Shown here piece after piece: positions 35,601-49,700 of a stretch of DNA of 64,000 bases. Under the pieces are notes generated by a model, which did no database searches, was not told where the DNA came from, and worked only from the letters and a program-made list of their open reading frames with translations. Source of the stretch: Bugulina stolonifera. Lineage: Eukaryota > Bryozoa > Gymnolaemata > Cheilostomatida > Bugulidae. Numbering within the stretch: the stretch's first letter is position 1; the number at the start of each line of letters is the position of its first letter. The stretch lies in assembly GCA_935421135.1 (NCBI GenBank), contig OW285188.1, positions 27,998,433 through 28,062,432 of the forward strand. The letters are read 5' to 3'. Position numbers and translations under genes: made by a program.

Positions 35601-38600
35601 TAGTGTAGTATAACGTAACGCTACAGATTATTTGGGTTATAGCTAGAAGATGTCCGGAGATACTCATTGAGAACTCCTTGTACGTGAATAAGGTGAGAAG
35701 TATGTACAACCGTGGAGAAGTAGAGGGTGGCTACTATTACAGTGACAAAGTGGAGGTAAAGTGCATGGATGGCTATAGATTCCTTGACCAGCGAGTGTCT
35801 GTATCCATTACCTGTACAGACGCTGGACAGTGGAGTCAGTCTCTATCCCATTGTGTAGGTAAGTTACATCGACTAGGCTCAGCCAAGGTCAACAGATAGA
35901 TCGGCAACTGTCCACTAGAGTTAGATTTAGGCATTGGTACATGTACATGTACATGTACCAATGCCTAAATCTATGCATATTATGCATAATTCTTTAATGA
36001 ACGTATACAAGTTTAGTATAGTTGGAGGTAACTTTGCTTCATGGGCTAGGGTAGGATATGTGTAAAGACACATTATACACCAATTGGCATATTGTAGAGA
36101 TTCACTGTGCAAAGCTACCACCACTATCTGACACCATAGTCTCATACCCTAATGTAAGTATATTTGTGAAGAAGGGAGAAGACCAACTTGTTGACTGTCT
36201 GGACGGATACGAGACGTCATCAGGGTCTCTCTACCAAAACCTAACCTGTGTGGAAGGAAGTATCTGGAATCCCCTACAGCCCCAGCCATGCAGCAGTATG
36301 TACTTACGCAATGTACTTACGCAATGTACTCACGCAATGTACTTACGCAATGTACTGCATATGATGTATTATAATTAGGACTCCACACGTGTACATGTAT
36401 ACTGTGTACATGTACAGTATTCAATCTACATGTAATAGGTGCACTCACTAGCTAAGCATTGAACAGTTCAGCTTCAAATTCTTTTACAGGCCTGCATCCA
36501 AAGATTTCCTGATGTTAATTGCTTTATACATATACTATTTTATCCATAATCAGAGAGATATAAGGCAGAGGTATTTAGTTAACTGAATTTTCCCTCCTGC
36601 CATTATCATTTGGAAATATAGTGCAGGCGTGATGCATAGTATTCTCAAAATAGAAATTTATAGACATCACAGCAGGTATGCGCAGAGTCGAGTTGAGGTA
36701 TTCTGGATTTGAGTGACCAGCATAACCACGGAGAATTTGAACTAATTGTATATCTAGAATAGCTTAGCTGAAACCAACACTCGCTGCTTCACAATTTTAG
36801 AGGTAAACTGCTCAGATCCTGGTGATGGTGTAAATGTAGTAGAGAGGGACGGTGTGAACTTTAGATTTGGTTCAGAAGTAACATATCTGTGTGCAGTGGG
36901 CTACATAACTCAAGATACTAAAACTACTTCGAGAAAGATAGTGTGTCGGACAGACAGGAGCTGGTCAATGCCTGCCCCTGTATGTGTCCGTGAGTATACA
37001 CATTAGTACAAGTACAAGGAACATGGTTGTTATGGCCTTTACAGACAAATAATGTGCTACAGCACTTACATCTAGTGTTGACAAGTGTATCGGTTACATA
37101 ACTGCATCGTGTAGCAGACTTTATTTAACATGTGAACAGTATATATTAGTGGCAGACGTTATTTAGCATGTGAACAGTACATCTAGTAGCAGGCGTTATT
37201 TAGCATGTGAACAGTATATCTATTAGTTTTGGACGAGCATTATGCTTGATTTCTCTAAATTCTTGATGCAACTTTAAATCACTGGTTCTGCTTCTGTGAA
37301 CCAAACATCCCACCGTCATAGGTTAGGAGGTACTTTGGTCTATATGTAGCTGTTCAGTGTGAACCTCCTCTCTTGGGAAACGGAACGGAGGACAGAATTC
37401 TGGAGAAGTCATATAATTATAGTGCTGAGTTAGGTGTCAACTGTCTGCCTACATTCCATGTATATGGGCACCGTGACCTCACTCATTTCTCTCTCACCTG
37501 CCAGGAAAATGAAGAATGGGAATCTGATTCCCCTCAGCTCTGTGTCAAGGACACTACTTATGTAGGTGACTCATTTGCTGCTTCACTTAATGACTCACTA
37601 GCATTGCGCAAATCTCAACCTACATGAATGCTTTAGTTTGCACTTTACCGCACAAAGATCACATAGATATACATTTCCCTCAAGTTTTTGATCGGCCATC
37701 TTGTCATCTTCGTTCCACTTATTTTTGCACCTTTGTAGTCTATAATTGCGGTGGTAACTCACTGTTTAAAATATCAACATATTGAACTCTTCCCGTCTGC
37801 TGTATATGCCTTGGGCTAATTATGAGCTTGGCCATGAAAGAACCAATATAATGTGTGTATCGTACCATTTGCTGCTACAGGTAAATTTCAACTTGACAGT
37901 GAGCACAGAGAAGGTGGGTGTGGTTCATGTTACATTTATCCAATCAAGAGCGTACCAAGGAATAAAGGTGAACTATACCCTAACAATGTCAGGTAAGGTG
38001 GTGTACCTGCTCACAAATATACGCCAACATAAATAATTATTATTTTAATTCAGTACGTGCTGGCTCTCAGACTATAGCATTGTCGTGTAGCTGAGTGTTG
38101 TGTCCGACTGGGTAGCTGTTGTGTGTATATATACTGGTTATAGTATACGTAGTACACTGTACACATCACACCGTATACACCTACATGTATATCACTGTTG
38201 TATGTGTATATACTGGTTATAGTATACGTAGTACACTGTACATATCACACAGTATTATACACCTACATGTATATCACTGTTGTGTGTATATATACTGGTT
38301 ATAGCAGACATACTACACTGTACATATCACACCGTATACACCTACATGTATATCACTGTTGTATGTGTATATACTGGTTATAGCATACGTACTACACTGT
38401 ACATATCACACAGTATTATACACCTACATGTATATCACTGTTGTATGTGTATATACTGGTTATAGTATACGTACTACACTGTACATATCACACAGTATTA
38501 TACACCTACATGTATATCACTATTGTATGTGTATATAATGGTTATAGTATACGTAGTACACTGTACATATCACACAGTATTATACACCTACATGTATATC

Positions 38601-41600
38601 ACTGTTGTGTGTATATATACTGGTTATAGCAGACATACTACACTGTACATATCACACCGTATACACCTACATGTATATCACTGTTGTATGTGAGTAGTAT
38701 AGTCATATGTGATGTATTCTAGAATAGATGATATACGACCATGAAAAATATGAGTCAGGGTAATGATACGCGAGTTTGTTTTAATTTTCAATACGTTTGA
38801 GAGTAATAATATAAAACTAAGTGATAAAAAACCTGATACACAACTATGAAAAATATGAGTAAGGGTAATGATACACGAGTTTGTTTTAATTTTCAATACG
38901 TTTGAGAGTAATAATATAAAACTAAGTGATAAAAAACTTGATACACAACTATGAAAAATATGAGTAAGGGTAATGATACACGAGTTTGTTTTAATTTTCA
39001 ATACGTTTGAGAGTAATAATATAAAATCAATCGATAAAAACCGATATACGACTATGAAGAATATGAGTAAGGCTAACGATACACGAGTTTGAGAGTAATA
39101 ATATGAAATCAATTGATAAGTAGACACGAATGAGTGTGAATGACAAAAGTTTTTGCCTCAAAACTGTGCAGTGGCGGGGAGGAGACGCTCGCCGAGGATG
39201 GAGTCTAGAATGGCACAATCGTAGAACGTTCTCCCGCTCTTGGAAGTCTTCTGTCCCTTGTACACCATCACGGAGGGGAGGAGGTCTTTCATCGAAACTG
39301 CCAGACGTCCCGGAAGGAAGACCTCTCCCTTTCTTTCTTCGTTTCCAATCCGACACTCGTAGGTGGCAATGGAGTTGCTCGCATTATCACCATCACCGCA
39401 TCTTGGGACGTATGCGGGTCGGAGCGCGGTCACCACCAGCACAGAACCAACGGGGAATGAAGATAGCGTTTGCACTCGAAGAAATTCTTCCAACTGGGCC
39501 AAGGTCTTCTTTCTCAAGTCACCGGCCAGTTTTTTCATGGCTGCTCCTGGCAGGGAGCACACGCTCTCGATACGGTTGAATGTGTTTTGTCCTTTAGCGG
39601 TCTCCTGCTGTCCCAAGTACACCATGATCCTAGGTGGAAGGGTAAGGTCCTTTAGCTCCTCTTCTTTGACATCCGCTAGCTTGGGCATGGCGTGACGAAT
39701 GTTGGTGTGAAAGCTGATGCAATGTCTCATCCCCTTGTCATCCACATAGCTTGCCCTGGCTAAGAATGCTTTTCCGAATGCCGTTTCAACCACCGAACCT
39801 CCACTCACTTCTAGCACAGTTCCTGGCTCTAGCTCTGACAACTTCACCGTTGTCTGCAGAGAGCTCCTCTTCTCCGCTCCCATGCTCCTACAATAACGAA
39901 AGTGGTGTATATAGATCCGACAAAGTGGTTAAACGGGAGAAAGATAGTACGGTAATTTATAGATATACGAACAGGGCTACTTACATTAGGGTTGCCGCCA
40001 CTGCACGAGCTTTCTCCAGGCTTAGTCCCCCGCTCTTTTTCTTCCCCTTGCAAGGGGACTTGGTAGCTTTTTTTCCCTTCGTCGTCGTCTCACCACCATC
40101 CATTTCTTCCGTAGCCGTATCGGCTCCGTGGCCATCATCATCATCATCATCTGATATTACAATCACCTGGGATTTCTTCTTTTTCTTAGCACAGATTTCA
40201 TCTCCTTTTGGGTTCTTCCTCTTCTTGGTTGTTGTGGTCTCGCCCCTATCCGAGGCCCGCTCCGGGGAGGACGGAGAGTCCGCCATGTTAGAAAGATCCT
40301 TTCGGGCAAGACTCCCCACTCCTATTATTTTCCCCTTCTTCCGTGCCTCTTTTAACGCATCCACCTCTTCTTTCCTCTTCTGACTGCACTCTTCTTCTTC
40401 AATAATTCCATCCATTTGTGAGTCCGTTAAGCCCGCAAATAACTCTTCTTGGTTTTGGACTATGTTGTCAGTATCCATTGATAATGTACTATTGTAGTAG
40501 TGTAGCTGTACAGTAGTGATGTGCTGAACTTTGAATGCTGAGACTGTGATCCCACTCTCCCTTTATACAACTGCTCATTTCTTGACTCCTCCCTTTTTTT
40601 ATCCAATCCCAATGTGACCCGATGCACCCCGATGTGAATCCGAAGCTTCCCGATGCATCCCGATGTGATTCCGAAGCTTCCCGATGCATCCCGATGTGAA
40701 TCCGAAGCTTCCCGATGCATCCCGATGTGATTCCGAAGCCTCCCGATGCATCCCGATGCACCCCGATGTGAATTGACACATCGGGACACATCGGGATGCA
40801 TCGGGAAGCTTCGGAATCACATCGGGATGCATCGGGAAGCTTCGGAATCACATCGGGATGCATCGGGAAGCTTCGGAATCACATCGGGATGCATCGGGAA
40901 GCTTCGGATTCACATCGGGATGCATCGGGAAGCTTCGGAATCACATCGGGATGCATCGGGAAGCTTCGGATTCACATCGGGATGCATCGGGAGGCTTCGG
41001 ATTCACATCGGGAAGCTTCGGAATCACATCGGGATGCATCGGGAAGCTTCGGAATCACATCGGGATGCATCGGGAGGCTTCGGATTCACATCGGGGTGCA
41101 TCGGGAGGCTTCGGATTCACATCGGGGTGCATCGGGAGGCTTCGGATTCACATCGGGAAGCTTTGGATTCACATCGGGGTGCATCGGAAGGCTTCGGATT
41201 CACATCGGGGGGCTTCGGATTCACATCGGGGTGGTATTGCCAAAGGTGGGGAAATGGTTAGACTCCGCCCACTGAATACTACTATTTAAGGTATGAGTTT
41301 CTCACTTTAGCAGTATGAACAATCAGCCTCTAGTCAACAGAGTGAGAGTAAACAGAGACAGCTACCTACTAGTCAGTGCGTGAACAGAGATGTCAACAAG
41401 TAGAACATAAGGTTAGTGTTAAATGGAGTAATTGGCAGCAATTGTGAAGTGTTTATTGTATAAAATGCTATCAAGCTAAAAAATGACTCACACCCTACTG
41501 CTATATATTTTTATAAGGAGACTAAACAGAGACACCTACCTTCTAGCCAGCACATGATCAGCAGAGATGTCAACAAGTGAAAAAGAAGGTTAGTGCTAAA

Positions 41601-44600
41601 TGAGGTATTTGGTAGCAATTGTGGATTGTTTATTGTTTATGTAGTGTGAAGTAAAAGAATAATAACTTACACCCTACCATTTTTTTTTATAGGGGGAGAG
41701 ACCTCTCGTCAGGTCGAGCACACCTGTCAACTATGCGGTCTGGTTCTCAGAACAGCGTTTTCTCTAGACAGGCACACGAAGAGAATGCATGCACAGGCTC
41801 ACCCGCACAAGTGCCCCGTTTGTGGCGGATGTTTTGATGGGAGGAGAAAGCTACGGTAGGTCATCACATGAGGCGATTTCATAGCGAGGGTAAGGTGGAA
41901 AAAGATGAGGGAGGTGCAGAGAAGTTTGATGATGTTTTCTGGTCTAAACCGCCAACAGCTGAAGAGGGGGATGAGATGGGGGTGCTACTAGCCCGCTATT
42001 GGAGCTCCATCAGGTCCGCAATACACTCTCGTCCCGTGGAAGATATTCTCAATGTTCGAGTGTGGAGAGGGGAAGGTGAAGACGAAGGAGATGAAGAGGT
42101 GTGGACTAAGTTGAGAGCAATGTGGAAGAGAGTGCCTTGTACTGTGAAGATTAACTGTAGCGCTGGAGTCATCCTCGAGCATAAGACCAGTGGAGAGTTG
42201 CGCTACTTTCACTCATCGAGCAACAATGCCGCATTCTTCCCCAAACCAAGACTGATCAGAACAGAGAATGAGATGAGAGAGTTTTGCGAATCTGTGCAGG
42301 AGCTCGACTTGAGAGAGAGGTCAGCACAAAGGAGACCGAATACCGCTTGGGCTTTACGTCACATTGCGAATCTGACATTCTACATCTATAAACTCCTAGA
42401 GATTGGCAAGGTGGGCGGTGTAGTGAGCAAACTCCCAGACTACATACTTAACAACCGACACGTGATAGCACTAGACGTAGACTTTTGGGCTAGAGGAGGT
42501 GCGCGTCCCTACTCAGACAACTTGTGTTTCTTTAGATGCTTGGCCATGATGTATGACTGTAACTGCGACCAAAAGAAGGGATGTCGTTGCCGTCGCCCCT
42601 CTTGCACCACAACACATCGCTTGTTTAAACAATACATGAGACAAACTAAATCTTCTTCCCCACCCTCATCAACTTTGTCAGACTTTCCCGGGGTGGACTC
42701 GAGTGATCTACTGGCCTTGGAAGATCATTTTGACGTATCTATAATAGTCTTCTGTCTAACTGATGAGGTGGTAGCTCCGATAGTTTGGTCATCCGGGGCA
42801 CGAAACAAAGCCCATAAACTCTTCGTCAACATGTACGAAAAACACTTCAGCTGGATAAAGAATGTTGATTCGTTTGCCAGATGTTTCACCTGCAAGCTGT
42901 GCGATAGCGCGTTTACACGCTTGTCCAGCCTACGACGACACAAGTGCTCGCCAGAAGAAGCATCGGTGTTCGTTTTCCCTGGTGGAACGTTTGGACCCCC
43001 GCCAACCATATTCACAAAACTCAAGCGAGTGGCGGGAATAGAGGTGGTGAACCCCGACCTCTTATACTACCCCTACTATATCACCTATGATATCGAATGC
43101 TTCATGCCAAAAGACAACCTACCAACTAACACCACCACGATGACTTTTAGTGCAAGACACGAGCTACTGAGCATATCCGCGTGTTCTAACGTCCCGGGGT
43201 TTGAGCGAGCCAAGTGTTTTGTGAGGAGCGTCGACAGCAAGGATGGGACGAAGTGCATTCGTCAATTCGTCCAATACATAGCAAAGATTGCTGACGTGGC
43301 AGGAGATTTGTTCGGAGAAAGATTCCAGGATGTACGCGAGCGACTCTCTACCTTCCTCGCGGATCGGGCGGATAGAGAAGAGGCCTTTGCTGACGACAAG
43401 TTCTCTAACGTCTCGACTTACAGGGTGAAGTCCGGTCTCTCCGGATTAGAAAGAGAATTAGAACAGCACATCTCCAGCGTTCCGGTGGTCGGCTTCAACT
43501 CGCAAAAGTATGACCTAAATATACTAAAGGGGCCTTTACTTCGCTCTCTACAAGAGGAGGAGGGAGAAGATTTTGTTTTCATCGTTAAGCGTGTTAACAG
43601 TATGTCCTGCGTGGAGAGTAGACGTTTTAGATTCCTTGACATATGCAACTTTATCGCACCAGGCTTCAACTACTCCAAATACTTGAAGGCATTTGGCGTG
43701 TCAGAGAGTAAGGGATTCTTTCCTTACGACTGGGTAGATTCCCTGAGAAGGTTGGATCATCACGGACTCCCTCCCCGAGAGAGTTTTTTCAACTCGCTGA
43801 CTCAGCAAGAATTGAGCCAGCAAGATTATCACCACTGTCAGCTCGTGTGGGAAAGAGAGAACATGGAAACGTTCAGGGATTTCCTCATCTGGTACAACAA
43901 CCTCGATGTGGCCCCATTCATCGAGGCCATTGCACGTCAGAGCTCTATCTATCGACAAAAGGGTATTGATATGTTGAAATCTGCAATCTCGCTTCCAGGC
44001 TTGGCTATCAGATGGTTGTTTATGGAGGTGGAGGCCCGACCTTACGGCTACTCTCCTCCGCAAGCCGCTCTCCCGCTGCATAGGTTAATGTCTCTCCGAG
44101 GCGAACTTTGCAACTCACAACCCATATGTCTGTTCGATGAGGAGAGCAAAAGTCTGTACCACACTCTCCGTGATAACCTCGTGGGAGGGCCAAGCATCAT
44201 CTTTCACAGACATCATGAAGTTGGAGTGACCTCTATTCGAGAGAAGATTTATGGCACATCCGCAAAACCCTGTAGGTCCATTCTGGGAGTCGATGCCAAC
44301 GCTCTCTACCTATACTGCATGATGGGGAATATGCCTACGGGTTATCCCAGGCGGAGGCTAGAGAGCCGAGGCTTTGCTCTGGAACCCGTTAAAAAGTTCA
44401 GCAAAGTGGCGCATGGATGGTTAGAGTTCCAATCGTGGAAGAGAGGAGAGGTCATCCTTCACCAACAGAATGGAGGAGAAATGAGGATAGGCTGTCACAA
44501 CCTACCGGTGGATGGTTATAGCGAACAGAGTCGGACTGTGTACCAATTCCACGGTTGCTACTGGCACGGACACGAGTGCGAGCTAGGAGGGAATGGAAAA

Positions 44601-46308
44601 GGTGTCAGAAACATGACAAATGAAGAGCTCCGGGTGGACACTGCGAGGAAAGAAGATTACATCAAGGCTCTAGGCTATAAGCTCATCACCACTCGGGAGT
44701 GTGAGTGGGGAGCGCGAGTTCGTTCGGATGAAGAGGTTAGGACATTTCTCTCCGTCTTCTTTTCTTCTCTCTATCCAGAGAGGGGTTGTGTCAACCTCGA
44801 TAAAATAATCAACAGTATTCGTAGTGGAGAGTACTACGGTTTAGTGGAGTGTGACATTTCCGTACCCGAAGAGCTAAAAGCGAAGTTCTCTGAGATGGCA
44901 CCTATTTTCAAGAATATAAATGTGGGAAGAGAACACCTTAGCGAACACATGCGCGCTTTTGCCAAACAGAACGGATTCTTGAAGAGACCTCAGCGAATGC
45001 TCGTGGGGAGTCTTTTTGGCGAGCGAATCACACTACTCACCGATCTGGCTAGATGGTATCTAGATCAAGGTTTGATAATTACCAGGGTCTATCAGTTTGT
45101 TCACTTTATCCCACGAGCCGTCTTCAAAGACTTTGGTTCTTCGGTCTCAGACGCAAGGAGAGGGGGAGATCTGGACCCTGATCTGGCCCTCTTGGCCAGC
45201 ACCAGCAAGCTCGTTGGGAATTCAGCCTACGGAAAGACCATAACAAATAAAGAGAAACATAAGACTGTCAAGTATGTAGAGACAGTAGAGGGGGCGGCCG
45301 TCAAAGTGAGGAGTAGGCACTTTTCTAGTCTCAACGAAGTCGATGAAAACTACTTTGAGATAGAGCTTCACAAGAAAAAGGTAAGTGTTGACAATCTTTC
45401 TTACTTTGACTCTTGATTTGACAAAACTTTTTCCGAGTGGAAGGGTGAACTTTCTCTCTCTCTCTCTCTCTTTCTTTTAGATTCGAATGGATGTTCCATC
45501 CGTCGTAGGATTCGTCATCCTCCAGAGAGCCAAGTTGAGGATGCTAGAGTTCTACTACGACTTTATGGATAGGTGAGTAGAACTAGACTATACAAAGATT
45601 TTATCAAATCCTTTTCTATTTATTCTTCGGTGTCAGCAACCTCTAACTCGCCCGATTTATTTTCACAGATTCGTCAGCAGAGAGGACTTTGAGTACGTAG
45701 AAATGGATACGGATAGCGCTTACATGGCCCTGAGTGCTCGCAATATAGATGAGGTCATCCGAAAAGATAAAAAAGAAGAGTTCTACAGAGAGTATGGTAA
45801 ATGGTTTCCCAGACCCTTCTGCGATAGCCACAAGGGAGACTTTATCACAACCAAGGTGCTCGGGCAAGAGTGGGAGATGAGGGAATGTTGTGAGAAGGTG
45901 CAGCGATACGAAACACGAACCCCTGGTCTGTTTAAGGAGGAGTTTCGGGGGGAGGGGGTCATCGCGCTCAACTCAAAAACTTACTTTTGTTGGTCCGCTG
46001 ACGGCGATAGCAAGTATAGTAGCAAAGGACTAAATAAAAGAGGAAACACCCTAACCAAAGAGAAGTTCCTCTCCGTGCTCAAAACAGGGGAGTCGGTGAG
46101 AGGAGACAATCGGGGTTTTATCAGAAGAGGAAATCAAACGTATAGCTATACCCAGCTAAAGACCGGACTCACCTACTTCTACGGTAAGCGGAAGGTTGCG
46201 GAAGACGGGGTGAGTACGAGTCCTATAGAATGTTAGTACTGATTTCTCGGAGATGAGACTACTTCATTCGATAAATCGGAGAGTAAACGAACAGTGCATC
46301 ATAACCCT

Positions 46309-46343
<35 letters not shown>

Positions 46344-46747
46344 ATAATTTTTTTTCACATTCACTCTCTATTGTAAGGGGTCTCCGTCCTCAAAACGGAG
46401 GGTTTACCGTTGTAGCCTTAAAACCGAGCAATAAAACACTAGCTAATACATTAAAAACCATTTACCTCTCCAAACCAAAGGGGTAGACGGTACTAGCGCA
46501 GCTTCCGCTCATACTCACCCCTTATCAGTTCACATTTCTTCTATTGTCTTCATTCGTAGGTGGGGGGTGACATCGCACGCGCACGATGCGCTCTCTCCCT
46601 ATCGGAGTTTGCTACCCGGGGGAAAGTGGACGCGGTGGTCAAAGAAATTGGTGGCGAGTCAACGACATCACCGTAGAGGCGGGTCTATTTGTAGGATGAT
46701 GATGATGATGATGATGGTGATGATGGTGATGATGATGATGGTGATGG

Positions 46748-46794
<47 letters not shown>

Positions 46795-49700
46795 GTGATG
46801 AAGATGGTGATGAGAAGACAAGCATCCATCTATCCCGTTTATCTATTTCTATTTCTACCCCTCCGAGCGATGATGTCGTCGGCTAACCTCCTCGCGAAGT
46901 CCACGGTTTGAAGCGCGGAAGAGCCACCGCCTTCACTTTCCCTCGCCACTCGTCACGGGGACGGGTGATTTCCCTAGGGGAGGGTCCGGGGAAAATGAGG
47001 GTTAAGACGCGAGTCTTTCATCGAAGGTCCGGGGGCGCTCGAACGGAGGAGCGCGCGAGTGCGGTGTCACCCCAACCAGTTCAGTCTCAACAGTCCCCGG
47101 CGAAGAAATCATCCGGAAGCACCACCACTCGGTAAGTTTCTTATAGTAGTATAGTCAGCGTCGTAAACTCTGCACGGGCACTCCGCAGGGATGTAGCCTA
47201 TCATTACTCTAACCCGTATTTTCCTTCGCTTCACCCTACTCCAGCCGACGGTCCGCCCGCGAGGGCCGCGACGGGTCGTTGGGGCGGGAGAGCGGGGGAG
47301 GGGCGGGGGATGGGCGGGGGGACGGCGGCGTGGGGCCACGGCTGGACTCGCAAACGAGAACCGCCGCGAGGCGGAGGGCGAGGCGGAGGGGTTTGGGGTG
47401 GGGAGGGGTGGGGAGGGGCGGGGACGGGTGGAGGGAGGACGGGTGGGGTTCGCGGGGCGGGGGGGCGCGCGCGTACGCGGGCGCCCCCTCGCCCGAGCCG
47501 TGGGACCGGGCGAGGGGTTTGCTCTTTAGACTGGGTTCTACGGAACAGCCGATGAGGTTTTTGAAACCACACCCGCGATCGGGGGGTAGGTTCTAGGGCT
47601 TTGCACATAGAGTGAGGTTTAGGGAAAGGGAGGGGGCGAGAGGACGGGTGGGGTGGTCGTCCGCCCGGGGAGTTTTTGGATCTAGGGCTAATAAGACGCG
47701 GAAATGACCGGGTGTCTGTGCAGATCTGCACTGACTATACTACTTATGTGTATATACTGGTTATAGCATACGTACTACACTGTACATATCACACAGTATT
47801 ATACACCTACATGTATATCACTGTTGTATGTGTATATACTGGTTATAGTATACGTACTACACTGTACATATCACACAGTATTATACACCTACATGTATAT
47901 CACTATTGTATGTGTATATAATGGTTATAGCATACGTACTACATTGTACATATCACACAGTATTATACACCTATCACTATTGTGTGTATATGTAGGTTAC
48001 AGTGAATACACTAGAGAGCTCACCAATTACAGTGTTAACTTCATTGTTAACACATCAGGACTGCATACACGGAGCCTTAGACTCACACCTGGGTTTGACT
48101 ACATTCTGGAGGTAAATCTTAAATCTGGGGTTCCTGTCAATGTGTACATGCGTACAGCCACTATATTCACTGCTACCCCGAGTATCATTCTGGGATTTAA
48201 ATATATGCTTGATTGTGTTCTTTTCATATTATAATAGCCTGAGCTCTTACTACTAGCAGTCTGCTGTATTGTGAGCCATCATTTAGGCGTCATTATTGGA
48301 AGGTACCAACAGGAGAATAAGCACTACGGATAAGATTCGAGTTCCCAGTGGTGCTCCTTCTCTAGACCCTTCATTCAGCCTGCTTGACGTACGGCCTCAG
48401 CTTATAGCTTGGTCAGAGAATGTTACTCTAGACATCAAGGTGACCAGCAGGTAAGAATTGAGACTATCTGTACCTATTAGTTACTGCTTACATGACAGGA
48501 TCCGTCCTCATTGCACGACTGGATCCGTACTCATTGGGATTAACCTATCAGTGTCCTCTATTCTAAGATGAAGATGCCCACGGCACATGAAATACAGACA
48601 TTAAAGAGACACCTGCTTCTTCACAGACAAGGTAAAAATAGCGGTTCATATATACTATGTACATGTACATATTATATATATATATGATGCAGCAATGCAT
48701 ATTTGGTATGATTCTTTGCAGCTCTTTTGATGTAGCCGTGAGGCAACTGTTCACCCAAGGCAATGGTAACATTGTTGGATTCACCCTAATTGTGTGTGAG
48801 GTCAACCCGTTCTTGGACCAAAGGTTTTATGATGGTCAGCTAGAGAGATACTTGCCCGGCTACAATCAGGTCACTTCAACCTATATAATTATTATATTGT
48901 GTCTCATGTACTAAACTATAGAGATGTACAAAACAGAAGAATAGGTACGAGCTGCCACTGGGGGCACATCTTCAAGGTCTTTGCTTTGTGTACACTATAA
49001 GTGATTTCATCTTTCCTGTCTTCCTGGATGTGATAGCCCAATAAATAATTAATAAGGGAGTAGAGAAAAGATGGACTTGAGAATTAAGATAATATTCTTG
49101 ACTTGACTGAAAGCTTATTAGCAAAGCTACATGTAAGTTAGCCTTGACTTGAATGCTTGAACTACAGGTGAAAGACATCACTGGGGCTGCCATCTGGCCA
49201 CCTTACCAAGCGTTTCCTCCCAGTGATTTCTTCCACTCTGTGACACCAGCGGATGGAAAGGTCAAGGTCATGTCATATAGGAATGCAGGGGCAGACGCTG
49301 CTAGCAACAGCAGTGAAAATTTCAGCTCAACTGAGAACAAGAATTTTAGAGTACCAATGATTAAACCCAAACCACTAAGTAAACAAACAGCTGATCTTAG
49401 TAGCCGTGGTGCAGCCATTATCCGCATTGGTGACGGGTGAGTGCCTAGCTGCAAATATTTGTTATTTAGATTATTAGGCAAGTGTTAGCTGGTACATGAT
49501 GTAGTTCTCCTATCTGCCTTTCATTCAAACTTCGTAACACCTCAGCAAGGATTGTAGAAAGTTGAACCGAATTCTGAGAAAGACATAATCAATTTTGTGA
49601 TCGGAGTTAATATTGTGGAAGAAGGAAAAGGGCAGAGAAGCACTTGTGTGTATCTGATACCACATTTCTTCTCTTATGGCATTCTTGAGATATTTTTAGG

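Follow-up and report, generated by a model that had tools for sequence, protein, structure and literature searches.

A Polinton-derived insertion in the bryozoan Bugulina stolonifera is probably one segment of a Polinton genome divided over separate elements

Polintons (Mavericks), which form a bridge between transposons and viruses, are described as elements of a single unit. Mavericks have AGTAGT...ACTACT ends, written (AGT)2//(ACT)2, and intact vertebrate copies carry their genes in one element of 12.7 to 24.6 kb, with terminal inverted repeats of 46 to 1447 bp (PMC8097293). In another survey, 9 of 72 Polintons lack the genes for capsid, protease, and ATPase, which was interpreted there as concerted loss (PMC4028283). 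Segmented genomes that carry PolB are described for bidnaviruses such as Drosophila Vesanto virus (PMC8363768, PMC11071296). Our searches of the open-licence literature, one of which was very broad, found no divided Polinton, and the available portions of PMC12567637, PMC6431247, and PMC11521997 do not mention one. Here we analyze a 64,000-nucleotide stretch (the window) of the 235-Mb Bugulina stolonifera genome, C2:27998433-28062432, which contains an insertion with Polinton-type ends and a PolB gene. This insertion, a P element in the terms used below, is probably the segment that serves replication in a Polinton genome that would be divided over trans-complementing, separately integrated elements; it is filed as a Polinton-derived segment and not as a complete Polinton. 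A divided Polinton would show that the lineage can turn multipartite, and it would serve as a natural experiment for finding out which genes have to move together.

The insertion occupies 9,052 bp (38693-47744) between two copies of TATGTG (38687-38692 and 47745-47750), and its first 13 bp (38693-38705) are a perfect inverted match to its last 13 bp (47732-47744), with the match ending at base 14. The features that delimit it are the following.

38116..38692, no strand: host minisatellite, left flank (Tandem Repeats Finder, periods 161 and 82)
38687..38692, no strand: target-site duplication TATGTG, left copy
38693..38705, plus strand: left terminal 13-mer AGTAGTATAGTCA, the sole remainder of the left terminal repeat
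47732..47744, minus strand: right terminal 13-mer TGACTATACTACT
47745..47750, no strand: target-site duplication TATGTG, right copy
47745..47973, no strand: host minisatellite, right flank (Tandem Repeats Finder)

When the flanks are joined with one copy of TATGTG, they match at 125 of 150 positions at an offset of 161, the longer minisatellite period, versus no more than 58 of 150 at any other offset between 150 and 174, so the minisatellite rejoins in register. A preliminary description of this locus, made from the sequence of the window, had claimed a 13-bp perfect inverted repeat, a TATGTG duplication, a length of 9,052 bp, and a precise insertion with a readable empty site; all of these were re-measured as claimed. 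Its assignment to the Maverick/Polinton type also holds, in that the element has a target-site duplication of 6 bp and AGTAGT...ACTACT ends as in Mavericks. The host sequence of the whole window (1-64000) is rich in minisatellites, with 112 tandem-repeat rows.

Further copies, for which the preliminary description had proposed a search of the assembly, are abundant. The 13-mer occurs 903 + 902 times genome-wide, versus 11 + 5 for a reversed control, and the 6-bp duplication is perfect in all 25 elements that were read at both ends (9 P, 6 C, 8 A, and two 40-bp remnants; the single-end loci L043 and L044 are excluded from this count), so these ends exceed chance. A pyrimidine-purine step lies at the center of the duplication in 23 of the 25. 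The sibling loci that we read fall into three types with the same 13-mer ends, which we call P, C, and A. Elements of the P type (~9.7 kb) carry the PolB gene and genes for proteins of 241 and 165 amino acids. Those of the C type (~10.7 kb) carry an integrase of the rve type (2e-11) that has a chromodomain (1.2e-6), an A32-type ATPase (7.9e-6), a 460-amino-acid capsid protein, a putative minor capsid protein that was recognized by eye alone, and a putative Ulp1-type protease whose best PDB match is African swine fever virus S273R at E 0.064 and which has no match in Pfam. Elements of the A type (~9.5 kb) have no hallmark gene; they contain a gene with ankyrin repeats that is spread over several exon-like pieces (Pfam 1.1e-5), as well as a 485-residue frame for which no Pfam match exceeds the cut-off. 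One such ankyrin-repeat gene lies, in exon-like pieces, on the minus strand of locus L020 at 1636-2926, and by eye it is reminiscent of the inhibitors of NF-kappaB. The outer 18 bp are identical across the P, C, and A terminal repeats compared; beyond them the P repeat diverges, and the C and A repeats are 89.9 to 99.9% alike.

Jointly, P and C hold the PolB, integrase, ATPase, and major capsid protein that mark a Polinton or Maverick, and the essential genes lie on separate molecules with common ends, as in a multipartite genome, known here as integrated DNA only. According to PMC8097293, PMC4028283, and PMC11071308, this gene set (a DNA_pol_B_2-type PolB, an rve integrase, an A32/FtsK-type ATPase, and a double-jelly-roll capsid), the (AGT)2//(ACT)2 ends, the 6-bp duplications, and the long terminal repeats found in the siblings are already known from Mavericks. 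Unlike in Mavericks, the genes are divided here between P and C, and a third, ankyrin-bearing type shares the ends. Like the nine Polintons mentioned above (PMC4028283), P is without morphogenesis genes, but here another element of this genome, with the same ends as P, carries them. Division would offer an alternative to loss for capsid-less Polintons of this kind (PMC4028283).

The capsid assignment is based on the predicted structure of a public protein, P0068, which is 100% identical to the C protein over 97% of the query and has a mean pLDDT of 83.7. Compared with solved structures, this model best matches the capsid proteins of PBCV-1 (E 1.3e-17), Sputnik (2.7e-16), and mavirus (4.3e-16), with TM-scores of about 0.5 to 0.6, and compared with viral models it best matches NCLDV, virophage, adomavirus, and adintovirus capsids. 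By this predicted fold, the 460-amino-acid C protein is a double-jelly-roll capsid protein. When the capsid alignment was used as a profile against PDB sequences, no capsid was recovered. The best viral match of the model is a protein of Cotesia sesamiae Mombasa bracovirus with 25% identity, and this superposition is poor (TM 0.36).

The distribution of the genes was mapped with exact sequence tags, which occur 247 times genome-wide for PolB, 189 times for the integrase, and 135 times for the A gene, with 0 for the reversed controls. On all of contig C1 and contig C2 to 18.9 Mb, the listed ends were paired into 88 bounded elements (eight unpaired A-end 27-mers were excluded from this map), among which 36 have a PolB tag, 19 an integrase tag, and 21 an A tag, and 12 are untagged. 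Every one of the tagged bounded elements (76/76) has one kind of tag only. One terminal-repeat type is found in the 36 PolB elements and the other in the 40 integrase and A elements, and the lengths cluster at 9.6 to 9.8 kb for P (31 of 36), 10.5 to 10.9 kb for C (13 of 19), and 9.0 to 9.6 kb for A (14 of 21). Seven of the 12 untagged elements were inspected: L050 and L051 hold PolB at 98.5 to 98.7%, L052 is a C element, L015 is a P element of reduced length, L053 is a hybrid, L019 is one of the 40-bp remnants, and L036 has P ends, with its PolB body gone and with common-region sequence and A/C-like repeats inside. At two places where PolB and integrase genes are neighbors (C11 4.70-4.73 Mb and C1 14.20-14.22 Mb), they belong to two adjoining elements, each with separate ends.

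This map bears on another explanation, which we regard as improbable: that P and C arose by deletion from an undivided Polinton, itself rare, lost, or located outside the mapped contigs. Their joint gene set is that of one Polinton, the map covers only C1 and part of C2, and lengths up to 17.2 kb occur. However, both tags are found in none of the 36 P and 19 C elements mapped, and the P and C terminal repeats differ beyond 18 bp, which simple internal deletion does not yield. The long elements that we read, of 13.7 and 15.0 kb, were considered as undivided Polintons and rejected, being C and A elements with extra sequence and no PolB match.

A second Polinton family in the same genome served as a control. 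A PF03175 search found ten other or divergent PolB places, and at six of them an A32-type ATPase lies on the opposite strand, 3.65 to 3.69 kb from PolB. Since this family keeps PolB and ATPase together, the split belongs to the P/C system. The six places of this low-copy family are C1:4280945, C1:12828897, C1:34622916, C2:16262050, C4:2373604, and C10:524940. No ATPase is among the matches listed for the other four places, which comprise two frames of 1415 amino acids (C1:22080281 and C7:13185903) and two weak matches. In a PF00665 search, in which 150 of 986 candidates were scored, no candidate was seen by eye near the other PolB places.

Copies of the divided genes are very similar. All of the 39 PolB candidates scored (of 482) have 99 to 100% identity and 37 are stop-free; in the 114 integrase candidates scored (of 383), the protein is identical throughout and contains no stops. 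Many near-identical copies, most of those scored being stop-free, make the system testable in the living host. By a simple Nei-Gojobori calculation on few pairs, PolB compared between P lineages (the window element versus L035) has a dS of 0.149 and a dN of 0.021, and the capsid gene compared between C copies (L012 versus L033) has a dS of 0.050 and a dN of 0.0085; three PolB rows from L024 were left unused as an artefact of an in-frame stop in that copy. Because dN is well below dS for both genes, PolB in P and the capsid gene in C look as if they are kept by selection, with neither element carrying the genes of the other. The two elements also have a region in common (40227-41528 of the window), in which P and three listed C elements are 98.5 to 99.5% identical in the left flank and 95.6 to 97.2% in the right flank. 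This likeness about equals that among P copies, which suggests, at the level of sequence comparison, exchange between P and C.

These observations can be set against the explanation that C alone is self-mobile, with host enzymes or the PolB of the other Polinton family copying it, and that P and A only borrow its integrase, with no mutual dependence. The integrase is indeed found on C only, other PolB families are present in the genome, and A is without a hallmark gene. A passenger would have no need of a PolB, yet the PolB of P has a dN far below its dS and most scored copies are free of stops; P is also as abundant as C by tags (247 versus 189), and the two appear to exchange sequence. We consider this explanation unlikely.

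For the divided-Polinton interpretation, the direct observations are three discrete types, common ends, duplications, exclusive content in the mapped stretch, low dN/dS for the PolB and capsid genes, and very similar copies. From what the protein families involved are known to do, one integrase and one polymerase would act in trans, P and C would be mutually dependent, and molecules of ~10 kb would be packaged separately. P would supply a protein-primed-type DNA polymerase that copies linear P, C, and A molecules from their AGTAGT ends. C would supply an RVE-type integrase, a packaging ATPase, a capsid protein, and probably a protease. Because P, C, and A all end in the same 13 to 18 bp, a single integrase could insert all three, and the C integrase would thereby produce 6-bp duplications with the same kind of center in every molecule with the common ends; the capsid protein and ATPase of C would package the ~10-kb molecules. 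A would bring accessory genes, including the ankyrin-repeat protein, would travel along, and may act on the host. More tentatively, and with less confidence than we place in the division itself, the three types could be a tripartite Polinton virus recently active in this host, with three linear double-stranded segments of ~10 kb that have 13 to 18 bp of common ends and are integrated, copied, and packaged separately: one for replication, one for virion and integration, and one accessory segment with the ankyrin gene. If that is true, some PolB-only Polintons elsewhere that were taken as defective may be segments too. Polydnaviruses likewise have divided, chromosomally integrated genomes with ankyrin genes on some segments, but they are domesticated by wasps, package circular segments, and have other core genes. 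Bidnaviruses are similarly a PolB-bearing animal virus lineage with the genome spread over segments; they differ in having single-stranded DNA and a parvovirus-type capsid, and neither an RVE integrase nor such chromosomal copies are reported for them in the parts of the sources consulted (PMC8363768, PMC11071296).

Several points weigh against division. Eight of 84 tags lie outside end pairs, as is expected of copies with a damaged end like that of the window element, and 12 of 88 end pairs are untagged; hybrid pieces (L053 and L036) exist. Two of the six C elements lack the common region, and past the outer 18 bp the terminal repeat of P is unlike those of C and A. Divergence is greater among P lineages (PolB dS up to 0.16) than among the compared C copies (capsid dS up to 0.05), and P and C therefore do not closely track one another. 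PolB for C could come from the control family, and an undivided parent outside the mapped contigs is possible. Scans of viral contigs with PolB and ATPase, which reach close relatives only, found no relatives, and thus no free segment has been seen.

The preliminary description had called the window element complete, with intact ends, and these two parts of it have to be revised; it had also noted that inverted repeats of 13 bp are far shorter than is usual for the class. Terminal inverted repeats are 543 to 1089 bp long in all 10 sibling elements tested (six read whole and four as left and right pieces), and their best-aligned arms are 96.6 to 99.9% identical. The close sibling L024, which is 98.6 to 99.3% identical to the window element over the body, starts with the same 13 bp and then has 531 bp that are missing from the window copy between 38705 and 38706; beyond these it matches the window from 38706 on, with one substitution near the junction. 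Judged against L024, which carries this further sequence, the left arm of the window copy has been largely deleted, either before the element inserted or afterwards. The long repeats expected of a Maverick (46 to 1447 bp in vertebrate ones) are therefore absent from the window element by deletion and present in the 10 siblings, and the 13-bp repeat is not a trait of the class; among the copies compared, the short inverted repeat is peculiar to this one. A naturally short repeat was rejected on these grounds. The TATGTG just inside the left 13-mer was likewise rejected as a third duplication copy, since L024 reads TGTGTG there, one substitution away in element sequence. The precise ends and the duplication would fit a complete Maverick whose 13-bp inverted repeats are short by nature, but with long repeats in every sibling tested and no integrase, ATPase, or capsid marker match in the element, we give this explanation almost no credence.

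The remaining features of the window element are as follows.

38729..39091, no strand: 105-bp tandem repeat inside the element (Tandem Repeats Finder)
39158..39883, minus strand: gene for the 241-amino-acid protein, with few amino acid changes among P copies
39981..40478, minus strand: gene for the 165-amino-acid protein
40227..41528, no strand: region in common with four of the six C elements read
41868..45380, plus strand: PolB, first exon of the stretch searched (frame open to 45416; the start may be further upstream)
45381..45480, plus strand: likely intron GTAAGT...TTTTAG, by inspection
45481..45572, plus strand: PolB, short exon, by inspection
45573..45668, plus strand: likely intron GTGAGT...TCACAG, by inspection
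45669..46236, plus strand: PolB, exon with motif C (DTDS)
47145..47157, plus strand: internal copy of the 13-mer
47202..47744, minus strand: intact right terminal-repeat arm, 543 bp as judged by L024

The first PolB exon contains an exonuclease motif (DIE) and motifs A and B and matches PF03175 at 2.8e-6. On the basis of PF03175 and these motifs, the protein is a predicted protein-primed-type family B DNA polymerase. Both putative introns (GT..AG, read by inspection of the sequence) preserve the frame. We considered a broken PolB, as the frame ends at 45416, and rejected it: splice-like GT..AG boundaries follow, and 37 of the 39 scored copies are stop-free over the same 1182 residues. Relatives with about 35 to 50% identity are found in amphioxus, starfish, and further contigs. 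The stretch between motifs A and B (about 44547-44729, residues about 894-954) resembles Vsr endonuclease (profile against PDB 1vsr, E 9e-5; Pfam 0.0038, below the cut-off).

Searches of the window element and the P siblings read gave no match at E 1e-3 to the integrase, ATPase, capsid, or other C-type marker proteins. In the window element specifically, tblastn with the C integrase at that threshold found none, and no rve domain was found in the four open reading frames scanned; for a packaging ATPase, capsid proteins, and a protease there was no C-type marker match and no other Pfam match above the cut-off. The first 84 to 85 residues of the 165-amino-acid protein are also present in four of the six C elements at about 97 to 98%. 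Within the common region, 31-bp repeats form two opposed blocks (40618-40768 and 40787-41233).

The internal 13-mer at 47145-47157 has the orientation of the left end and marks the inner edge of a terminal block of ~588 bp in P elements (704 bp in L036); it is also present in the P siblings L013, L015, L024, L035, L036, L037, L045, and L046. Palindromic remnants of 40 bp that consist of two element ends are found at L019 151-190 and L018 282-321, with 6-bp duplications where read (L018 and L019), and they may have been left by deletion between palindromes near both element ends. Further 40-bp remnants lie at C8:2899210, C9:3897102, C9:15395067, and C11:6431417, and the exact L019 form occurs at five places.

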